DNA of 64,000 nt. It comes from Kutzneria kofuensis. GTDB lineage: Bacteria; Actinomycetota; Actinomycetes; Mycobacteriales; Pseudonocardiaceae. Location: the NCBI RefSeq assembly GCF_014203355.1, contig NZ_JACHIR010000001.1, positions 6,698,038 through 6,762,037 on the forward strand, written 5' to 3'. How positions within the stretch are numbered: the first letter of the stretch is position 1; every line of letters starts with the position of its first letter. Position numbers and translations under genes: made by a program. Under the pieces are notes generated by a model. That model did not search any database. It saw only the letters and a program-made list of their open reading frames with translations, and was not told the DNA's origin. Below are positions 1,033 to 14,190 of this stretch, in pieces.

Positions 1033-2415
1033 ATGACCACAAGTTCCACCAGTTACAGGGAGTTGACTGACGACAACGGCAGGGTCTACCGGATCGGCGA
1101 GAGTCCCCGGGACATCATGGGGCGTTCCCGAGCCTGGATGGTCTGGCTGCCATGGGTCGCGATGATCGCGGTGAGCGTCTACGAGTACGGCTGGGGTGCC
1201 GTCGTCAAGACGCTGCAACAGAAGAACGGTTGGACGCTGACCGAGGTGTTCTGGTTGGCGACGGTGTGGGCGGTCTTCCAGGCCGCCATCGCGTTCCCCG
1301 CGGGACGGTTACGGGAGCGCAACGTGGTGTCGGCCCGTTCGGCAATGTTGTTGGGCGCGGTGTTGTCGGGCGTCGGCTATTTCACCATCGCTTACAGTGG
1401 CAGCCTCGGGCTGGCCTTCGCCGGCTACTCGGTCTGCGGCGGCATCGGCGCGGGCCTGGTGTACGCCACCTGCATCAACATGGTCGGCAAGTGGTACCCG
1501 GAGAAGCGCGGCGCGCGGACCGGGTTCGTCAACGGTGGCTTCGCCTACGGGGCGGTGCCGTTCATCTACATCTTCAGCGCCGTGCTCACCCCGGGGAGCA
1601 CCACCGCCATCCTGTCGGTGATCGGCCTGTACATGCTGATCGTGGTGGCCGCCTGCGGCCTGATGTTCCGGGACCCGCCGAAGAACTGGTGGCCCGAGCA
1701 CATCGACCCGAAGGAATGGGCCCGCAACACCAAAACCAACAGGAGCCTGGCCAAGAACCCGCCCGCGGTGCGCCAGTACACGCCGATGGAGGCCATCCGC
1801 ACCGGCATGCTGCCACTGATGTGGGTCACGCTGGTCATCATCGGCGGCGTGTCGTTGTTCGGGATCAACTTCCAGGTGCAGTTCGCGACGGCCAGCCACT
1901 TCGGGCCGTTCGTGGCGGCGTCGTCGGCCGGCATTCTGTCCATTGTGAACGGTACAGGGCGGGCGCTGGTCGGCTGGCTGTCCGACCACATCGGACGTCG
2001 GCAGACGCTCACCGTGGTGCTGCTGATCGCGGGCGTGGCCCAGTTCGGCCTCGTCTACTCCGGCAACACGGAGAACATCGCGCTGTTCATGATTTTCGCG
2101 TTCCTGGTCGGCTTCGGCAGCGGTGCGTTCTATCCGCTGTTCGCGGCCCTGGTGCCGGACTACTTCGGTGAGAACTACAACGCCACCAACTACGGCCTGG
2201 TGTACAGCGCCAAGCTCGTGGGCGGTGTCGGCGGCGGCGGTCTCGGCGCCATGGTGGTCACCGCGTGGGGTTACACCGGCGCGTACATCCTGGCCGGCTG
2301 CATCGCGCTTGTCGCGGCCGGGCTCACTCTGTTCCTGCACCAGCCGGGACGACCGAAGACCAAGACCACGGTGTCGGCCGCGGCCTCGGGCTTCGGCGCC
2401 CCAACCACCGCCTAG
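1033..2415 (+). CDS. OFA-family MFS transporter (oxalate/formate antiporter-like)
   Basis: A 460-residue multi-pass membrane protein with 12 likely helices. ATG 1033 is chosen because AGAGG (1023-1027) sits just upstream; the frame extends back to 964 without a good ribosome site. Seen: the MFS signature around 'GWLSDHIGRRQ' between the two halves, and the N-terminal 'GWTLTEVFWLATVWAVFQA' segment and the 'GAGLVYATCIN' helix typical of OFA carriers such as OxlT. Predicted role is oxalate uptake with formate exchange, which fits the formate dehydrogenase genes downstream. Its TAG stop overlaps the stop of the convergent GntR gene in a shared CTAG. Confidence 0.85.
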   Translation: MTTSSTSYRELTDDNGRVYRIGESPRDIMGRSRAWMVWLPWVAMIAVSVYEYGWGAVVKTLQQKNGWTLTEVFWLATVWAVFQAAIAFPAGRLRERNVVSARSAMLLGAVLSGVGYFTIAYSGSLGLAFAGYSVCGGIGAGLVYATCINMVGKWYPEKRGARTGFVNGGFAYGAVPFIYIFSAVLTPGSTTAILSVIGLYMLIVVAACGLMFRDPPKNWWPEHIDPKEWARNTKTNRSLAKNPPAVRQYTPMEAIRTGMLPLMWVTLVIIGGVSLFGINFQVQFATASHFGPFVAASSAGILSIVNGTGRALVGWLSDHIGRRQTLTVVLLIAGVAQFGLVYSGNTENIALFMIFAFLVGFGSGAFYPLFAALVPDYFGENYNATNYGLVYSAKLVGGVGGGGLGAMVVTAWGYTGAYILAGCIALVAAGLTLFLHQPGRPKTKTTVSAAASGFGAPTTA

Positions 2416-3152
2416 CTGCTCTTGCTCCGAGCATTCTCGTTGAGGTAGGCCAGTCGGGTCCGTTCCGTGTGCACGGTCATGATCCGGCTGGCCTCCTCGC
2501 TGTCGCCGGCGGCGATGGCTTCGATCAGCTGTTCGTGCTCGGCCCAGGCGTCTTCCCCCCGGGGCTGCGCGATCGGGGTGTAGTACCAGCGCACCCTGCG
2601 GTCCACCAAGCCGATCAGCTCGGCCAGCACCGCGTTGCCGGAGAGCTTGGTGATGAAGGCGTGCAGATTGGCGTTGGCCTCGACCAGCCGGTGCACGTCG
2701 AGGTCGGCCAGCGCCTTGACGCCGTCCTCCTGGAGGTCCCGTAGCAGGTCGACGTCCGCCGGAGTGGCGCGGCCGGCCGCCAACTTCGCGGAGTGCGTCT
2801 CCAGCACGCTCCGCACGCTGAGCAGCTGGTCGGCCTCCTCCTCGGTCGGCGTGTGCACGAATGCGCCCTGGGCCGGGCGCAGATCCACCCAGCCCTCGGT
2901 CTGAAGCCGTTGCAGCGCCTCACGAACGGGCTGGCGGCTGACCCCCAGGTACTCCGCCAGCTCGATCTCGACGAGGTGCTGTCCCGGCTGGAGGGTGCGG
3001 TTGACGATCAACTCGATGAGCGCCTCGTAGACGGCCTGCCGCAGCGGGGCGGGGCGCTCCACCTTGCGACCGGCCGAGCCGCCGAGCGTGCCGCGGGCCG
3101 CCCGGCGTCGGTTGACCGCTCCGCCGGGGAACGGTGTCGCGGGCTCGCTCAC
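2412..3152 (-). CDS. GntR-family regulator, FadR/FCD subfamily
   Basis: GTG 3152 is preceded by a strong GAGGAGG (3159-3165, minus strand), giving 246 residues; an upstream in-frame ATG at 3305 has no such site. Seen: a GntR winged helix ('YLGVSRQPVREALQRLQTEGWV', given in part: residues ~60-90) followed by an all-helical FCD domain with the expected metal/ligand His and Asp positions (LHAFITKLSGN and AEHEQLIEAIAAGD). These regulators usually bind small organic acids. The gene is convergent with the transporter and divergent from the PanE-like gene, so it is the likely local repressor; the GCATAC-type palindromes are candidate operators. Confidence 0.85.
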   Translation of the reverse strand: MSEPATPFPGGAVNRRRAARGTLGGSAGRKVERPAPLRQAVYEALIELIVNRTLQPGQHLVEIELAEYLGVSRQPVREALQRLQTEGWVDLRPAQGAFVHTPTEEEADQLLSVRSVLETHSAKLAAGRATPADVDLLRDLQEDGVKALADLDVHRLVEANANLHAFITKLSGNAVLAELIGLVDRRVRWYYTPIAQPRGEDAWAEHEQLIEAIAAGDSEEASRIMTVHTERTRLAYLNENARSKSS

Positions 3153-12090: not shown

Positions 12091-12222
12091 CGTGGGCAAC
12101 GCTAGGGAGCGAAAGGCCCCACGGTAACCACGGTCGCGAGGGATCATTGTCCCCCGAGGGAGGGACTCGGCGTCAGGGGCGGGTGTCGCATGATCGGTGG
12201 CGGGCCGACCAGGGGAGGGACG

Positions 12223-13371
12223 ATGCAGGTGACCGTGCGCGGCACGCTCGCGCGCCAGTCGCTGCTGGTCAGTGCGTTGTGCGTGGCCACGGACGTGAGC
12301 CTGGTGTTCTTCGCGGACTGTGTGCCCGGCAGCATCGAGCAGATCGTCACGCTGCTCGCGATCATCGCCGTCGACCTGTGGCTGGCCGGCCCGGCCCGGC
12401 TGTCCGGCTTCGTCGCCGTCGCGCACGGGCTGGTCAAGATCCTGGCCGTGCTGGCGATCGGGCCGTCCGCGGCCGGCAACACCGCCGGCCTGATGATCGC
12501 CGGCTACCGGGCGGGCGCCTGGCTGCGCGGCTGGCCGGCGTGGTTCACCATGGCCGCCACGACCACCTGTGTCGGGCTGGCCCGGGTGTTCGCCAACGGG
12601 TTCCACAACTGGGCGCTGATTCCGATCACCATGGCCGAGTTCGGGCTGCTGCCCTGGCTGGTCGGCCGCTACACCACCACCCGTCGCGCCTACCTGGCCG
12701 AGCTGGAGCAGCGGGCCGAGCAGGAACGCCGCGACGCGAAGGATGCCGTGGCCAAGGCGGTCGTGGAGGAACGCGCGGCCATCGCCCGCGACCTGCACGA
12801 CGTCATCGCCCACCACGTCAGCGCGATCAACGTGCACGCCGGCGCGGCCCGGCTGATCATGGCCGGCGACCGGCAGGACGCCAAGCTCGGCGCGTCCGTG
12901 ACGGCGGTGGAGAGCGCCGCCCGCTCGGCCATGGTCGAGCTCCGGCACCTGCTCGACCTGCTGCACGGCGACCGCGCCGCCAGCGCCCGCCAGCCCGGCC
13001 TGGACAACATCGACGAGTTGTTCGACGGCGTGCGGGCGGCCGGCCTGCAGGCCGAGCTCGTGGTCGCCGGCCACCCGCGTGACCTGCCGGAATCCCTGGA
13101 CATCGCGCTCTACCGGATCGCTCAGGAGATGCTCACGAACGCACTGCGCCACGGCGACGGCACCGAGGTCGCCGTGCACCTCGACTACGGCGAGACCTCA
13201 CTCGTGCTGTCCGCCAGCAACCCGATGCCGGCCAACGCCCGGCATTCCGACGGGCAGCAGCGGGGCCTGGCCGGCATCGCCAACCGGGTCACGCTGTTCA
13301 ACGGCGTCGCCAGCAGCGGCCCCTCGGCCGACGGCCGGACGTGGCGCACCGCGGTGGTGTTCCCGCTGTGA
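12223..13371 (+). CDS. Two-component sensor histidine kinase, NarL/DesK class
   Basis: 382 residues; GGGAGGG (12214-12220) supports ATG 12223 over the ATG at 12190. Seen: about five N-terminal membrane helices (residues ~10-155) without a large sensor loop, a HisKA_3 dimerisation segment with 'EERAAIARDLHDVIAHHVSAI' (phospho-acceptor His in ARDLHD; only part listed), and an ATP-binding domain with the N-box 'TNALRHG' and G-box 'GLAGIANRV'. Partner is the LuxR-type regulator after the 83-bp tandem repeat. It is divergent from the His-rich operon, a plausible regulatory target. Confidence 0.88.
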   Translation: MQVTVRGTLARQSLLVSALCVATDVSLVFFADCVPGSIEQIVTLLAIIAVDLWLAGPARLSGFVAVAHGLVKILAVLAIGPSAAGNTAGLMIAGYRAGAWLRGWPAWFTMAATTTCVGLARVFANGFHNWALIPITMAEFGLLPWLVGRYTTTRRAYLAELEQRAEQERRDAKDAVAKAVVEERAAIARDLHDVIAHHVSAINVHAGAARLIMAGDRQDAKLGASVTAVESAARSAMVELRHLLDLLHGDRAASARQPGLDNIDELFDGVRAAGLQAELVVAGHPRDLPESLDIALYRIAQEMLTNALRHGDGTEVAVHLDYGETSLVLSASNPMPANARHSDGQQRGLAGIANRVTLFNGVASSGPSADGRTWRTAVVFPL

Positions 13372-13454
13372 CCGAGCTTGCGAGGGAACCAATCGGCACT
13401 GCGACCGTGGTCGCGGACCTTCGTGCTCCGAGCGTTAGCGAGGAAGGTCCGTGA
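13368..13454 (+). CDS. Possible 28-residue coupled mini-ORF, first repeat unit
   Basis: GTG 13368 overlaps the kinase stop (GTGA) and the frame ends at TGA 13452-13454, which overlaps the GTG of the second unit. The peptide begins MTELAREPIG and ends SEEGP. No family is recognised. All five differences between the two units change the amino acid, so there is no sign of protein-level selection; it may serve only to carry ribosomes to the next start. Confidence 0.3.
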   Translation: MTELAREPIGTATVVADLRAPSVSEEGP

Positions 13455-13533
13455 CCGAGCTTGCGACGGAACCAATCAGCACTGCGATCGTGGTCGCGGA
13501 CCTTCGTGCTCCGAGCGCTAGAGAGGAAGGTCC
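13368..13533. repeat. 83-bp tandem direct repeat (two units) between kinase and regulator
   Basis: Units are 13368-13450 and 13451-13533, differing at five of 83 positions. Each starts with GTGACCGAGCTTGCGA and ends with GAGGAAGGTCC. Each holds an inverted repeat GGACCTTC/GAAGGTCC (13415-13422 with 13443-13450; 13498-13505 with 13526-13533) that can fold over the ribosome site of the following GTG. Each unit also encodes a 28-codon frame that begins in one GTGA and ends in the next, linking the kinase stop to the regulator start. Confidence 0.95.
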
Positions 13534-13537
13534 GTGA
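13451..13537 (+). CDS. Possible 28-residue coupled mini-ORF, second repeat unit
   Basis: GTG 13451 to TGA 13535-13537, the latter overlapping the GTG start of the response regulator (13534). The peptide begins MTELATEPIS and ends REEGP. Same arrangement as the first unit; the GGAAGG just before GTG 13534 is its last coding part and is also the regulator's ribosome site. Confidence 0.3.
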   Translation: MTELATEPISTAIVVADLRAPSAREEGP

Positions 13538-14190
13538 CCCTGGACGTGCTGCTGGCCGACGACCACGCGATGTTCCGCTCCGGGATGCGCGCGATCCTCG
13601 ACACCCAGGACGAGTTCCGGTGCGTGGCCGAGGTCGGCGACGGCAGCGCGGCCGTCGCCGAGACGCAGCGGCTGCGGCCGGACGTGGCCGTCCTCGACGT
13701 GCGGATGCCGAAGATGGACGGGCTCGCCGCGACGGAGGCGATCCTCGCCGCGCCGGGCAACCGCACCAAGGTCATCGTGCTCACCACGTACGACCACGAC
13801 GAGTACGTGTACCGGGCCCTGCACGCCGGGGCCAGCGGTTTCCTGCTCAAAAGCCTGCCGCCGGAGGAGCTGATCACCGCCGTGCGGGTGGCCGCCCGCG
13901 GCGACGCGCTGATCGACCCGTCGGTCACGCAGCGGCTGATCACCCGGTTCGCCACGGCCGTCGCGCCGCCGGTTGAGCCGCGCGAGCTGGGCCAGCTGAC
14001 GCCCCGTGAGCGGGAAGTGCTGCTGCTGGTCGCGGCGGCCGACAGCAACGCGGAGATCGCCGCCAAGCTGCACGTCGGCGAGGAGACCGTGAAGACGCAC
14101 GTCTCGCGGATCCTGGCCAAGCTGGGGCTTCGGGACCGGGTGCACGCCGTCGTCTACGCACACCTGAATGGGCTTGTGCGGGGCGAATAG
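13534..14190 (+). CDS. NarL/FixJ-family response regulator
   Basis: 218 residues from GTG 13534 with GGAAGG just upstream in the repeat. Seen: a receiver domain with the acidic pair in 'LLADDHAMFR', phospho-acceptor Asp55 in 'VLDVRMPKMDG', Thr/Lys switch residues ('VLTTYD', 'GFLLKS'), and a C-terminal LuxR helix-turn-helix ('LTPREREVLLLVAAADSN' to 'EETVKTHVSRILAKLGLRD'). Cognate regulator of the kinase upstream. Confidence 0.92.
   Translation: MTLDVLLADDHAMFRSGMRAILDTQDEFRCVAEVGDGSAAVAETQRLRPDVAVLDVRMPKMDGLAATEAILAAPGNRTKVIVLTTYDHDEYVYRALHAGASGFLLKSLPPEELITAVRVAARGDALIDPSVTQRLITRFATAVAPPVEPRELGQLTPREREVLLLVAAADSNAEIAAKLHVGEETVKTHVSRILAKLGLRDRVHAVVYAHLNGLVRGE

Follow-up and report, generated by a model that had tools for sequence, protein, structure and literature searches.

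A tandem repeat between histidine kinase and response regulator genes of Kutzneria kofuensis is probably a mobile repeat of the MIRU type

The junction described here lies in a 64,000-nucleotide stretch of Kutzneria kofuensis DNA (contig NZ_JACHIR010000001.1, positions 6,698,038 to 6,762,037), referred to as the window, in which a histidine kinase gene is joined to a NarL/LuxR-type response regulator gene through two tandem 83-bp units (Table 1). Three GTGA tetranucleotides at 13368, 13451 and 13534 form the junctions between the kinase stop, two 28-codon frames and the regulator start, an arrangement first given in a preliminary description of the sequence and confirmed here. The kinase frame ends in ...VVFPL with its stop codon inside the first GTGA and is followed by the two mini-frames, VTELAREPIGTATVVADLRAPSVSEEGP and VTELATEPISTAIVVADLRAPSAREEGP; the regulator begins VTLDVLLAD at the third GTGA. 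The true start of the kinase may be a later ATG. The two units span 13368–13533, and Tandem Repeats Finder reports the array as 13368–13539 with a period of 83 and 94% matches. The units differ at unit positions 17, 28, 38, 68 and 72, and all five differences are non-synonymous as first described, a result with p of about 0.24 at a chance of about 3/4 per random change and thus weak taken alone. The changes in unit 2 break one pair of the left hairpin (position 17) and one pair of the inner hairpin (position 72). The inverted repeat at the right end, GGTCGCGGACCTTC / GAAGGTCCGTGACC, is longer than first noted and forms 15 pairs in unit 1 and 14 pairs in unit 2 in predicted folds, where the right stem of each unit covers the next ribosome site and start codon. 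In unit 1 the 3' arm of this stem overlaps a Shine-Dalgarno-like GAGGAAGG and the next GTG, and the first base of the left GTGA pairs with unit base 22. Chance hardly accounts for the array: shuffled sequence yields on average 0.00 matches to the left-end pattern (at most three mismatches), of which the window has two, and further copies of the unit lie elsewhere in the genome, at 29 places.

Table 1. Features at the kinase–regulator junction, in window positions
Feature	Position	Strand	Basis
Histidine kinase (HisKA_3), upstream gene; stop is the TGA of the first GTGA	12190..13371	+	Pfam PF07730, E 2.8e-13
Unit 1, 83 bp	13368..13450	+	Repeat finding, sequence reading
Unit 2, 83 bp, five differences from unit 1	13451..13533	+	Repeat finding, sequence reading
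Mini-ORF (open reading frame) 1, 28 codons, GTG start, stop overlapping next GTGA	13368..13454	+	Sequence
Mini-ORF 2, 28 codons, GTG start, stop overlapping regulator start	13451..13537	+	Sequence
Left hairpin, unit 1: GTGACC / GGGAAC with GAGC-TT-GCGA inside	13368..13389	+	Covariation
Right stem 5' arm, unit 1 (GGTCGCGGACCTTC)	13409..13422	+	Predicted fold, pair counts
Right stem 3' arm, unit 1 (GAAGGTCCGTGACC)	13443..13456	+	Predicted fold, pair counts
Right stem 5' arm, unit 2	13492..13505	+	Predicted fold
Right stem 3' arm, unit 2, over regulator start codon	13526..13539	+	Predicted fold
NarL/LuxR-type response regulator, downstream gene, GTG start	13534..14190	+	Pfam PF00072 (Response_reg), PF00196 (GerE)

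A 170-base query finds the repeat at 23 places in the genome, the window included, and a sequence-only model (R1), built only from GTGA copies with C at unit base 22, identifies 31 units at 30 loci, none with an E value above 1.2e-5 and every one on contig C1; another six matches, with E between 0.2 and 0.8, were excluded. All 30 loci were read. The tetranucleotide at the left end is GTGA at 26 loci and ATGA at four, and the corresponding right-end (A/G)TGA, written DTGA below, is present at 29. A downstream frame of at least 100 codons opens at the right junction at 26 loci (control frames: 18 in +2 and none in +1), and an upstream frame of at least 100 codons is closed by the left TGA at 23 (the other two frames: 16 and 5), all of these counts being subject to the long chance frames of high-G+C DNA. 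Units in this genome thus stand mostly at gene starts, in register and in the reading direction of the gene, and 26 of the 30 complete units are 2 mod 3 in length. At one locus (L022, from about 1502; C1:6579460) the left part of a unit is fused in frame to the downstream gene, and the remnant now supplies the N-terminus of the downstream protein.

Orthologous junctions were located in the genus with a joined query of the N-termini of 18 downstream genes, and 76 of the located junctions were retrieved together with four other unit loci. Protein-level matches in congeners were obtained for 17 downstream genes; these and the kinase junction make up 18 loci, L026 being excluded as it gave no good match. 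Across the 18 loci, 46 junctions are empty, 42 are filled (18 of the filled from K. kofuensis itself) and 12 are unclear; rows without DTGA at the aligned start were classed as unclear, so that empty rows have DTGA by selection, and two of the unclear junctions (L155 and L185) do carry a unit. Copy number varies at a single site, with 0, 1, 2 and 4 units at L015, 0, 1 and 5 at L016 and 0, 1 and 3 at L002. The coexistence of 46 empty and 42 filled junctions identifies the unit as a mobile insertion at (A/G)TGA start codons, and from this comparison of present-day junctions we infer movement into DTGA sites. Immediately upstream of a gene that looks by eye like ilvN, three genomes (L020, L161 and L163) carry a 77-bp ATGA-type unit, which two others (L162 and L164) lack at that position.

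The kinase junction itself follows the same pattern. A kinase orthologue at E 1e-60 or better is present in 12 of 60 genomes, K. kofuensis included. In the congeners G002, G003 and G004 the junction is empty, with stop and start overlapping directly at GTGA, and in congener G001 it holds three 77-bp units, so that unit numbers across five congeneric genomes are 0, 0, 0, 2 and 3; none of the nine junctions read in other genera (L038–L046) has a unit. Units 1 and 2 of the window share an A at position 25 that is absent from the eight other 83-bp copies read (L002–L006 and three in L119), for which reason a unit resembling that of L002 was probably inserted once at the kinase junction and then duplicated. 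These data bear directly on the proposal of the preliminary description that the array is a translational relay or attenuator, selected in this operon to set the kinase:regulator ratio. The strong stem over the regulator start speaks for such a role, as does the statement, in the accessible part of PMC4213456, that the copies of a mycobacterial repeat between senX3 and regX3 drive senX3-independent expression of regX3. A device of the operon is, however, at odds with a junction at which three congeners have no unit and a fourth has units of another size class, with the absence of units from the nine more distant junctions and with the presence of the same element at 29 other places in the genome. 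The claim that the array exists to set the ratio is therefore unsupported and a selected relay is unlikely; any effect on the ratio is probably incidental.

The array is instead very probably a tandem pair of short mobile repeats, non-autonomous and of the type of the mycobacterial interspersed repetitive units (MIRUs), inserting directly after (A/G)TGA at a start codon whether or not the TGA also ends an upstream gene. Comparison of the aligned junctions shows insertion with DTGA kept on both sides, a 2 mod 3 register with an open frame, differences in copy number and paired ends. At two loci (L027 and L031) the left side of the unit reads ATGA and its right side GTGA. Five of the six empty orthologues of these loci read ATGA, for which reason the D on the left is best read, on the alignments at L027 and L031, as belonging to the target and the D on the right as belonging to the element. 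The sixth (L178 in G004, orthologous to the L027 junction) lacks a unit, yet its left flank closes with GTGCAGCAGTGAGC, which is how a unit ends on the right, and it looks like the scar of a unit deletion. At the right core, 35 of 42 filled junctions have C as the sixth base, compared with 24 of 46 empty ones, which would fit a right DTGA(C/G)C brought in by the element.

The internal ORFs overlap the flanking stop and start codons at DTGA, and unit length is conserved in register. Among 143 units, five without a recognisable right end were dropped before lengths were counted; the length is 2 mod 3 in 127 of the remaining 138 and 1 mod 3 in none, and 90 of the 138 are 77 bp long. The preliminary description held that duplication keeps the register, which is true, and ascribed this to each mini-frame of the array ending in the GTGA of the next unit; the reason is rather the 2 mod 3 length together with the repeated GTGA core, a property of the whole family and not of this array. 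The mini-frame is open in all 123 distinct in-register units, while frame +2 contains a stop in 53 of them. An open frame of this constancy would suit a mini-ORF that encodes a selected small protein, although coupling alone would also require it. Against a selected product stand a ratio of non-synonymous to synonymous differences (pN/pS) of 0.79 within the genus (743 pairs) and 0.88 in other genera (113 pairs), averages over overlapping pairs that are not a formal test and are used here in place of the argument from five of five differences, as well as the nearly even spread of differences over codon positions 1, 2 and 3 in the genus (2275, 2177 and 2533) and the change of residue at all five window differences. 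A selected small protein is thus very unlikely, in line with the earlier remark that there is little sign of a selected peptide. The frame is kept and the peptide hardly so, as expected if it is the act of translation that matters.

The coupling architecture and the stems over start codons, both part of the preliminary description, are supported, and frame, length, the Shine-Dalgarno sequence of the unit and the stems probably keep the next gene coupled. In the proposed course of events, the element would use the resident start codon for its mini-ORF, and ribosomes that come off the kinase gene or load at the resident Shine-Dalgarno sequence would restart on the mini-ORF. A ribosome terminating on the mini-ORF would open the right-hand stem, which encloses the new start codon of the downstream gene and the Shine-Dalgarno sequence carried in the right end of the unit, and allow restart there. 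Insertion and duplication would be tolerated because translation is handed on. The repeats could alternatively act mainly as a promoter or another transcript-level element for the regulator, and promoter activity has been reported for the MIRU region of senX3-regX3 in the accessible text of PMC4213456. However, no sigma-70-like promoter (the one promoter type scanned) and no intrinsic terminator was detected in 13300–13600, and a promoter needs neither the open frame nor the 2 mod 3 length that are kept, which makes this an improbable account.

The preliminary description knew of no system of this form, and this claim to novelty fails because mycobacterial MIRUs share the architecture and were first described in the senX3-regX3 operon, likewise a two-component operon. 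Like the MIRUs of ETR-D/MIRU04 at senX3-regX3, the present units are short repeats, the classic length of 77 bp being also the commonest here, interspersed at many chromosomal loci (31 units at 30 places in this genome). MIRUs further lie between operon genes, including a kinase–regulator pair, occur in tandem copies of varying number and are thought to be mobile, according to the available portions of PMC12548453, PMC4213456 and PMC2453075. The first of these, citing Supply et al. 1997, describes MIRUs as apparently mobile elements that enter at start codons and carry along an ORF whose coupling has a spacing of -4 nt. According to PMC4213456, the 77-bp MIRUs between senX3 and regX3 are confined to M. 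leprae and the M. tuberculosis complex. The present units differ from MIRUs in their 83-bp size class, in an A/G target base matched by an internal base and in their spread over six families of one order, among which the mycobacterial family may be one. The likeness is one of architecture; a scan for the M. tuberculosis ETR-D primer returned only two unrelated records. No report of MIRU-like units outside mycobacteria was found among the literature matches listed, which cover few subscription papers. To our knowledge there is no accepted answer to how MIRUs move or why they are sited exactly at start codons. The array is read here as a mobile repeat of a described kind and not as a device of the kinase–regulator operon.

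The six families (labelled f1, f2, f4, f8, f15 and f16) were identified in genome samples, each of which includes the K. kofuensis genome. Units are present in all seven genomes of the genus (31, 59, 19, 83, 79, 3 and 68 matches per genome), in 46 of 150 genomes of the family (21 of 46 genera) and in 93 of 298 genomes of the order (29 of 77 genera), the per-genome match numbers being lower bounds in samples of more than 40 genomes, in which few candidates were scored. Under the stricter filters of the phylum sample, three of 296 genomes match, one of which lies outside the order (E 6.1e-5). A blastn search of plasmid and phage collections with the two window units as the only query gave no match. 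In three arrays of four or five near-identical units (L062, L063 and L064, from G001 and G003) the last unit differs at one or a few positions, as does the first unit of L064; these odd end units may show the direction in which the arrays grow.

A Y1 transposase was considered as the autonomous partner of the units and was rejected. The genome contains a single Y1_Tnp (PF01797) match in an open frame of 58 amino acids, and none was found in the six congeners that carry units. In the family sample, a Y1 match occurs in 7 of the 46 unit-bearing genomes and in 24 of the 104 others, both counts being taken as the same draw of 150 genomes, and hence there is no association. The 6.1-kb stretch around the Y1 match of this genome (G000), to which the examination of flanks was confined, contains no hairpin pattern like that of the units. 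At L032 a 446-amino-acid ORF (1736–3076, minus strand) lies beside the short Y1 match (about 3000–3102) and by its motif reads like TnpB; L032 would then be a remnant of an IS605-type element.

Other mobile systems resemble the units in part. Elements of the IS200/IS605 type, such as IS608, and their non-autonomous derivatives share end hairpins in the same orientation, a one-sided tetranucleotide target and a link between a target base and an internal base, which in the present units could also come from selection on a hairpin. IS608 recognises its tetranucleotide target by base pairing, as given in the accessible part of PMC5934647. The units differ in lacking a Y1 transposase in the congeners and any family-wide association with one. 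The IS608 guide lies 5' of its hairpin, whereas the putative left guide of the present units lies 3' of theirs. Integron cassettes resemble the units in that their attC sites act as folded single strands and tandem cassettes are parted by a short repeated core; the present units differ in being far smaller and in having a start codon as the core. Repetitive extragenic palindromes (REPs) and their mosaic assemblies (bacterial interspersed mosaic elements, BIMEs), mobilised by the transposase TnpA-REP (REP-associated tyrosine transposase, RAYT), offer a further likeness as short, interspersed, structured repeats. REPs are extragenic palindromes without an in-register ORF, and in the Y1 search of this genome, the congeners and the family sample no Y1 or RAYT gene accompanies the present units. 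REPs may be non-autonomous elements moved in trans, according to the text available for PMC8266576.

The units carry hairpins of the same orientation near both ends, (N)CGAGC..GCGAG(N') on the left and CGAGC..GCGAGG on the right. A2 is an alignment of 63 units taken from several families; its named pairs form in 81.7% of cells, compared with 26–39% when slid by one to three columns, and 129 cells show a double change against a shuffled mean of 52.5, a value reached in none of 500 shuffles. The own-genome subset (22 rows) is paired in 87.1% of cells and has 13 double-change cells against 4.0, and its further pair types do not exceed those of the shuffles (110 of 500 as high). Pair 5/18 occurs in A2 as C-G (27), G-C (25), U-A (5) and A-U (1), and RNAalifold on A2 returns only eight pairs at -4.58 kcal/mol. 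The right stem, which was defined by the analyst and then counted in A2, has a mean score of 11.9 against a mean of 9.6 and a highest value of 10.1 for shuffled arms. The right D and its scanned partner base are G-C in 79, A-T in 7 and other in 48 of 134 cases (six of the others being G-T). The right stem is thereby supported, and pairing specific to D in this stem only weakly. A third hairpin in the middle of the unit, at about bases 38–53, was noticed by eye in L025, L100, L104 and L110 (for instance CCGCG-AA-CGCGG and GCACTGC-GA-GCAGTGC); its sequence varies between units and its pairing is kept.

The first base of the target start codon corresponds to unit base 22 as pair 1/22. Among 143 left ends, comprising every match to the hairpin core with orthologous and tandem copies included, GTGA occurs with C in 123 and ATGA with T in 18, with two exceptions (L083 and L090); GTGA never occurs with T, and the two bases match in 141 of 143. 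The core pattern omits units with a broken core, such as unit 2 of the window, which has GTGA and C and is without G17. Units of the A/T type are found in f1 (two genera), f4, f8, f15 (two genera) and f16. A tree count with bases 1 and 22 as a joint label gives at least 11 changes, the two exceptions included, against a shuffled mean of 17.3 and a lowest value of 14, which indicates that switches are repeated but clustered. Separate reconstruction of the two bases gave tie-dependent branches (11 and 10 changes, four shared) and was not used. The covariation of the first base of a target start codon with an internal base of the unit is apparently new, and either base pairing guides insertion or a hairpin at the start codon is under selection.

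Selection on the start-codon hairpin after insertion, with no part in target recognition, has about even chances of accounting for the covariation. In favour of it, the start codon would lie within a plausible hairpin made by these pairs, one site (L027 and L175) holds related units of the A/T and the G/C kind in two species, and ATG and GTG starts also alternate among empty orthologues. The base that follows the left DTGA matches the native base that follows the right DTGA (C/C 31, G/G 49, C/G 6, G/C 3 and other 16, in 105 last or single units whose counts are not independent), a pattern not predicted by hairpin selection at the left start alone; other possible explanations of this match are a duplicated core and the right stem pair 44/90. 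If pairing guides insertion, an internal guide at about unit bases 18–22 would pair with the start-codon DTGA, GTGA-type and ATGA-type elements differing by one guide base, a second internal stretch would pair with the unit's own right DTGA, and the folded single strand would be the substrate of a recombinase not recognisable as a Y1 transposase. This full scheme is offered tentatively, as a possibility that we consider doubtful at present.

Several observations weigh against the mobile-repeat account or parts of it. Fewer than 100 open codons lie upstream at 7 of the 30 own-genome loci, so that a unit does not always bridge two genes and the rule is 'start codon' and not 'between two genes'; the preliminary description had suggested recording whether copies always bridge two coding genes in GTGA phase, and the copies do mostly sit at downstream starts, on the strand of the gene and in register. 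Four own-genome units (L007, L021, L026 and L031) are out of register, and L022 lacks a right end. Both sides of L023 read GTGA while ATGA stands in its three empty orthologues, and the left side of L175, which occupies the L027 site in G003, reads GTGA; neither fits a left D taken from the target. The number of pairs in A2 with any double change, nine, does not settle the matter, as shuffles average 7.5 and 63 of 500 are as high; in addition, 28 of the 63 rows fail to form pair 3/20 and 40 fail to form pair 4/19. Folding z-scores are modest (-1.67 and -1.39 for window units 1 and 2, 0.15 for L104 and 0.56 for L073), and the energy model ranks another structure above the left hairpin in the window units. 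The Y1 search of this genome, the six congeners and the family sample yielded no mobilising enzyme, and translation of the mini-frames and its coupling are what we infer from their arrangement.

Should insertion be guided by pairing, MIRU-type elements across a bacterial order would form a guide-directed mobile family specialised for translation starts, and they would restore the start sites they enter by bringing a new start, a ribosome site and a coupled mini-ORF. With pairs of empty and filled junctions available by the dozens, a target with two states, ATGA and GTGA, and an internal base that matches it, both target choice and coupling are open to experiment. The array also serves as a warning that apparent leader peptides or attenuators between the genes of actinomycete operons may be mobile elements.
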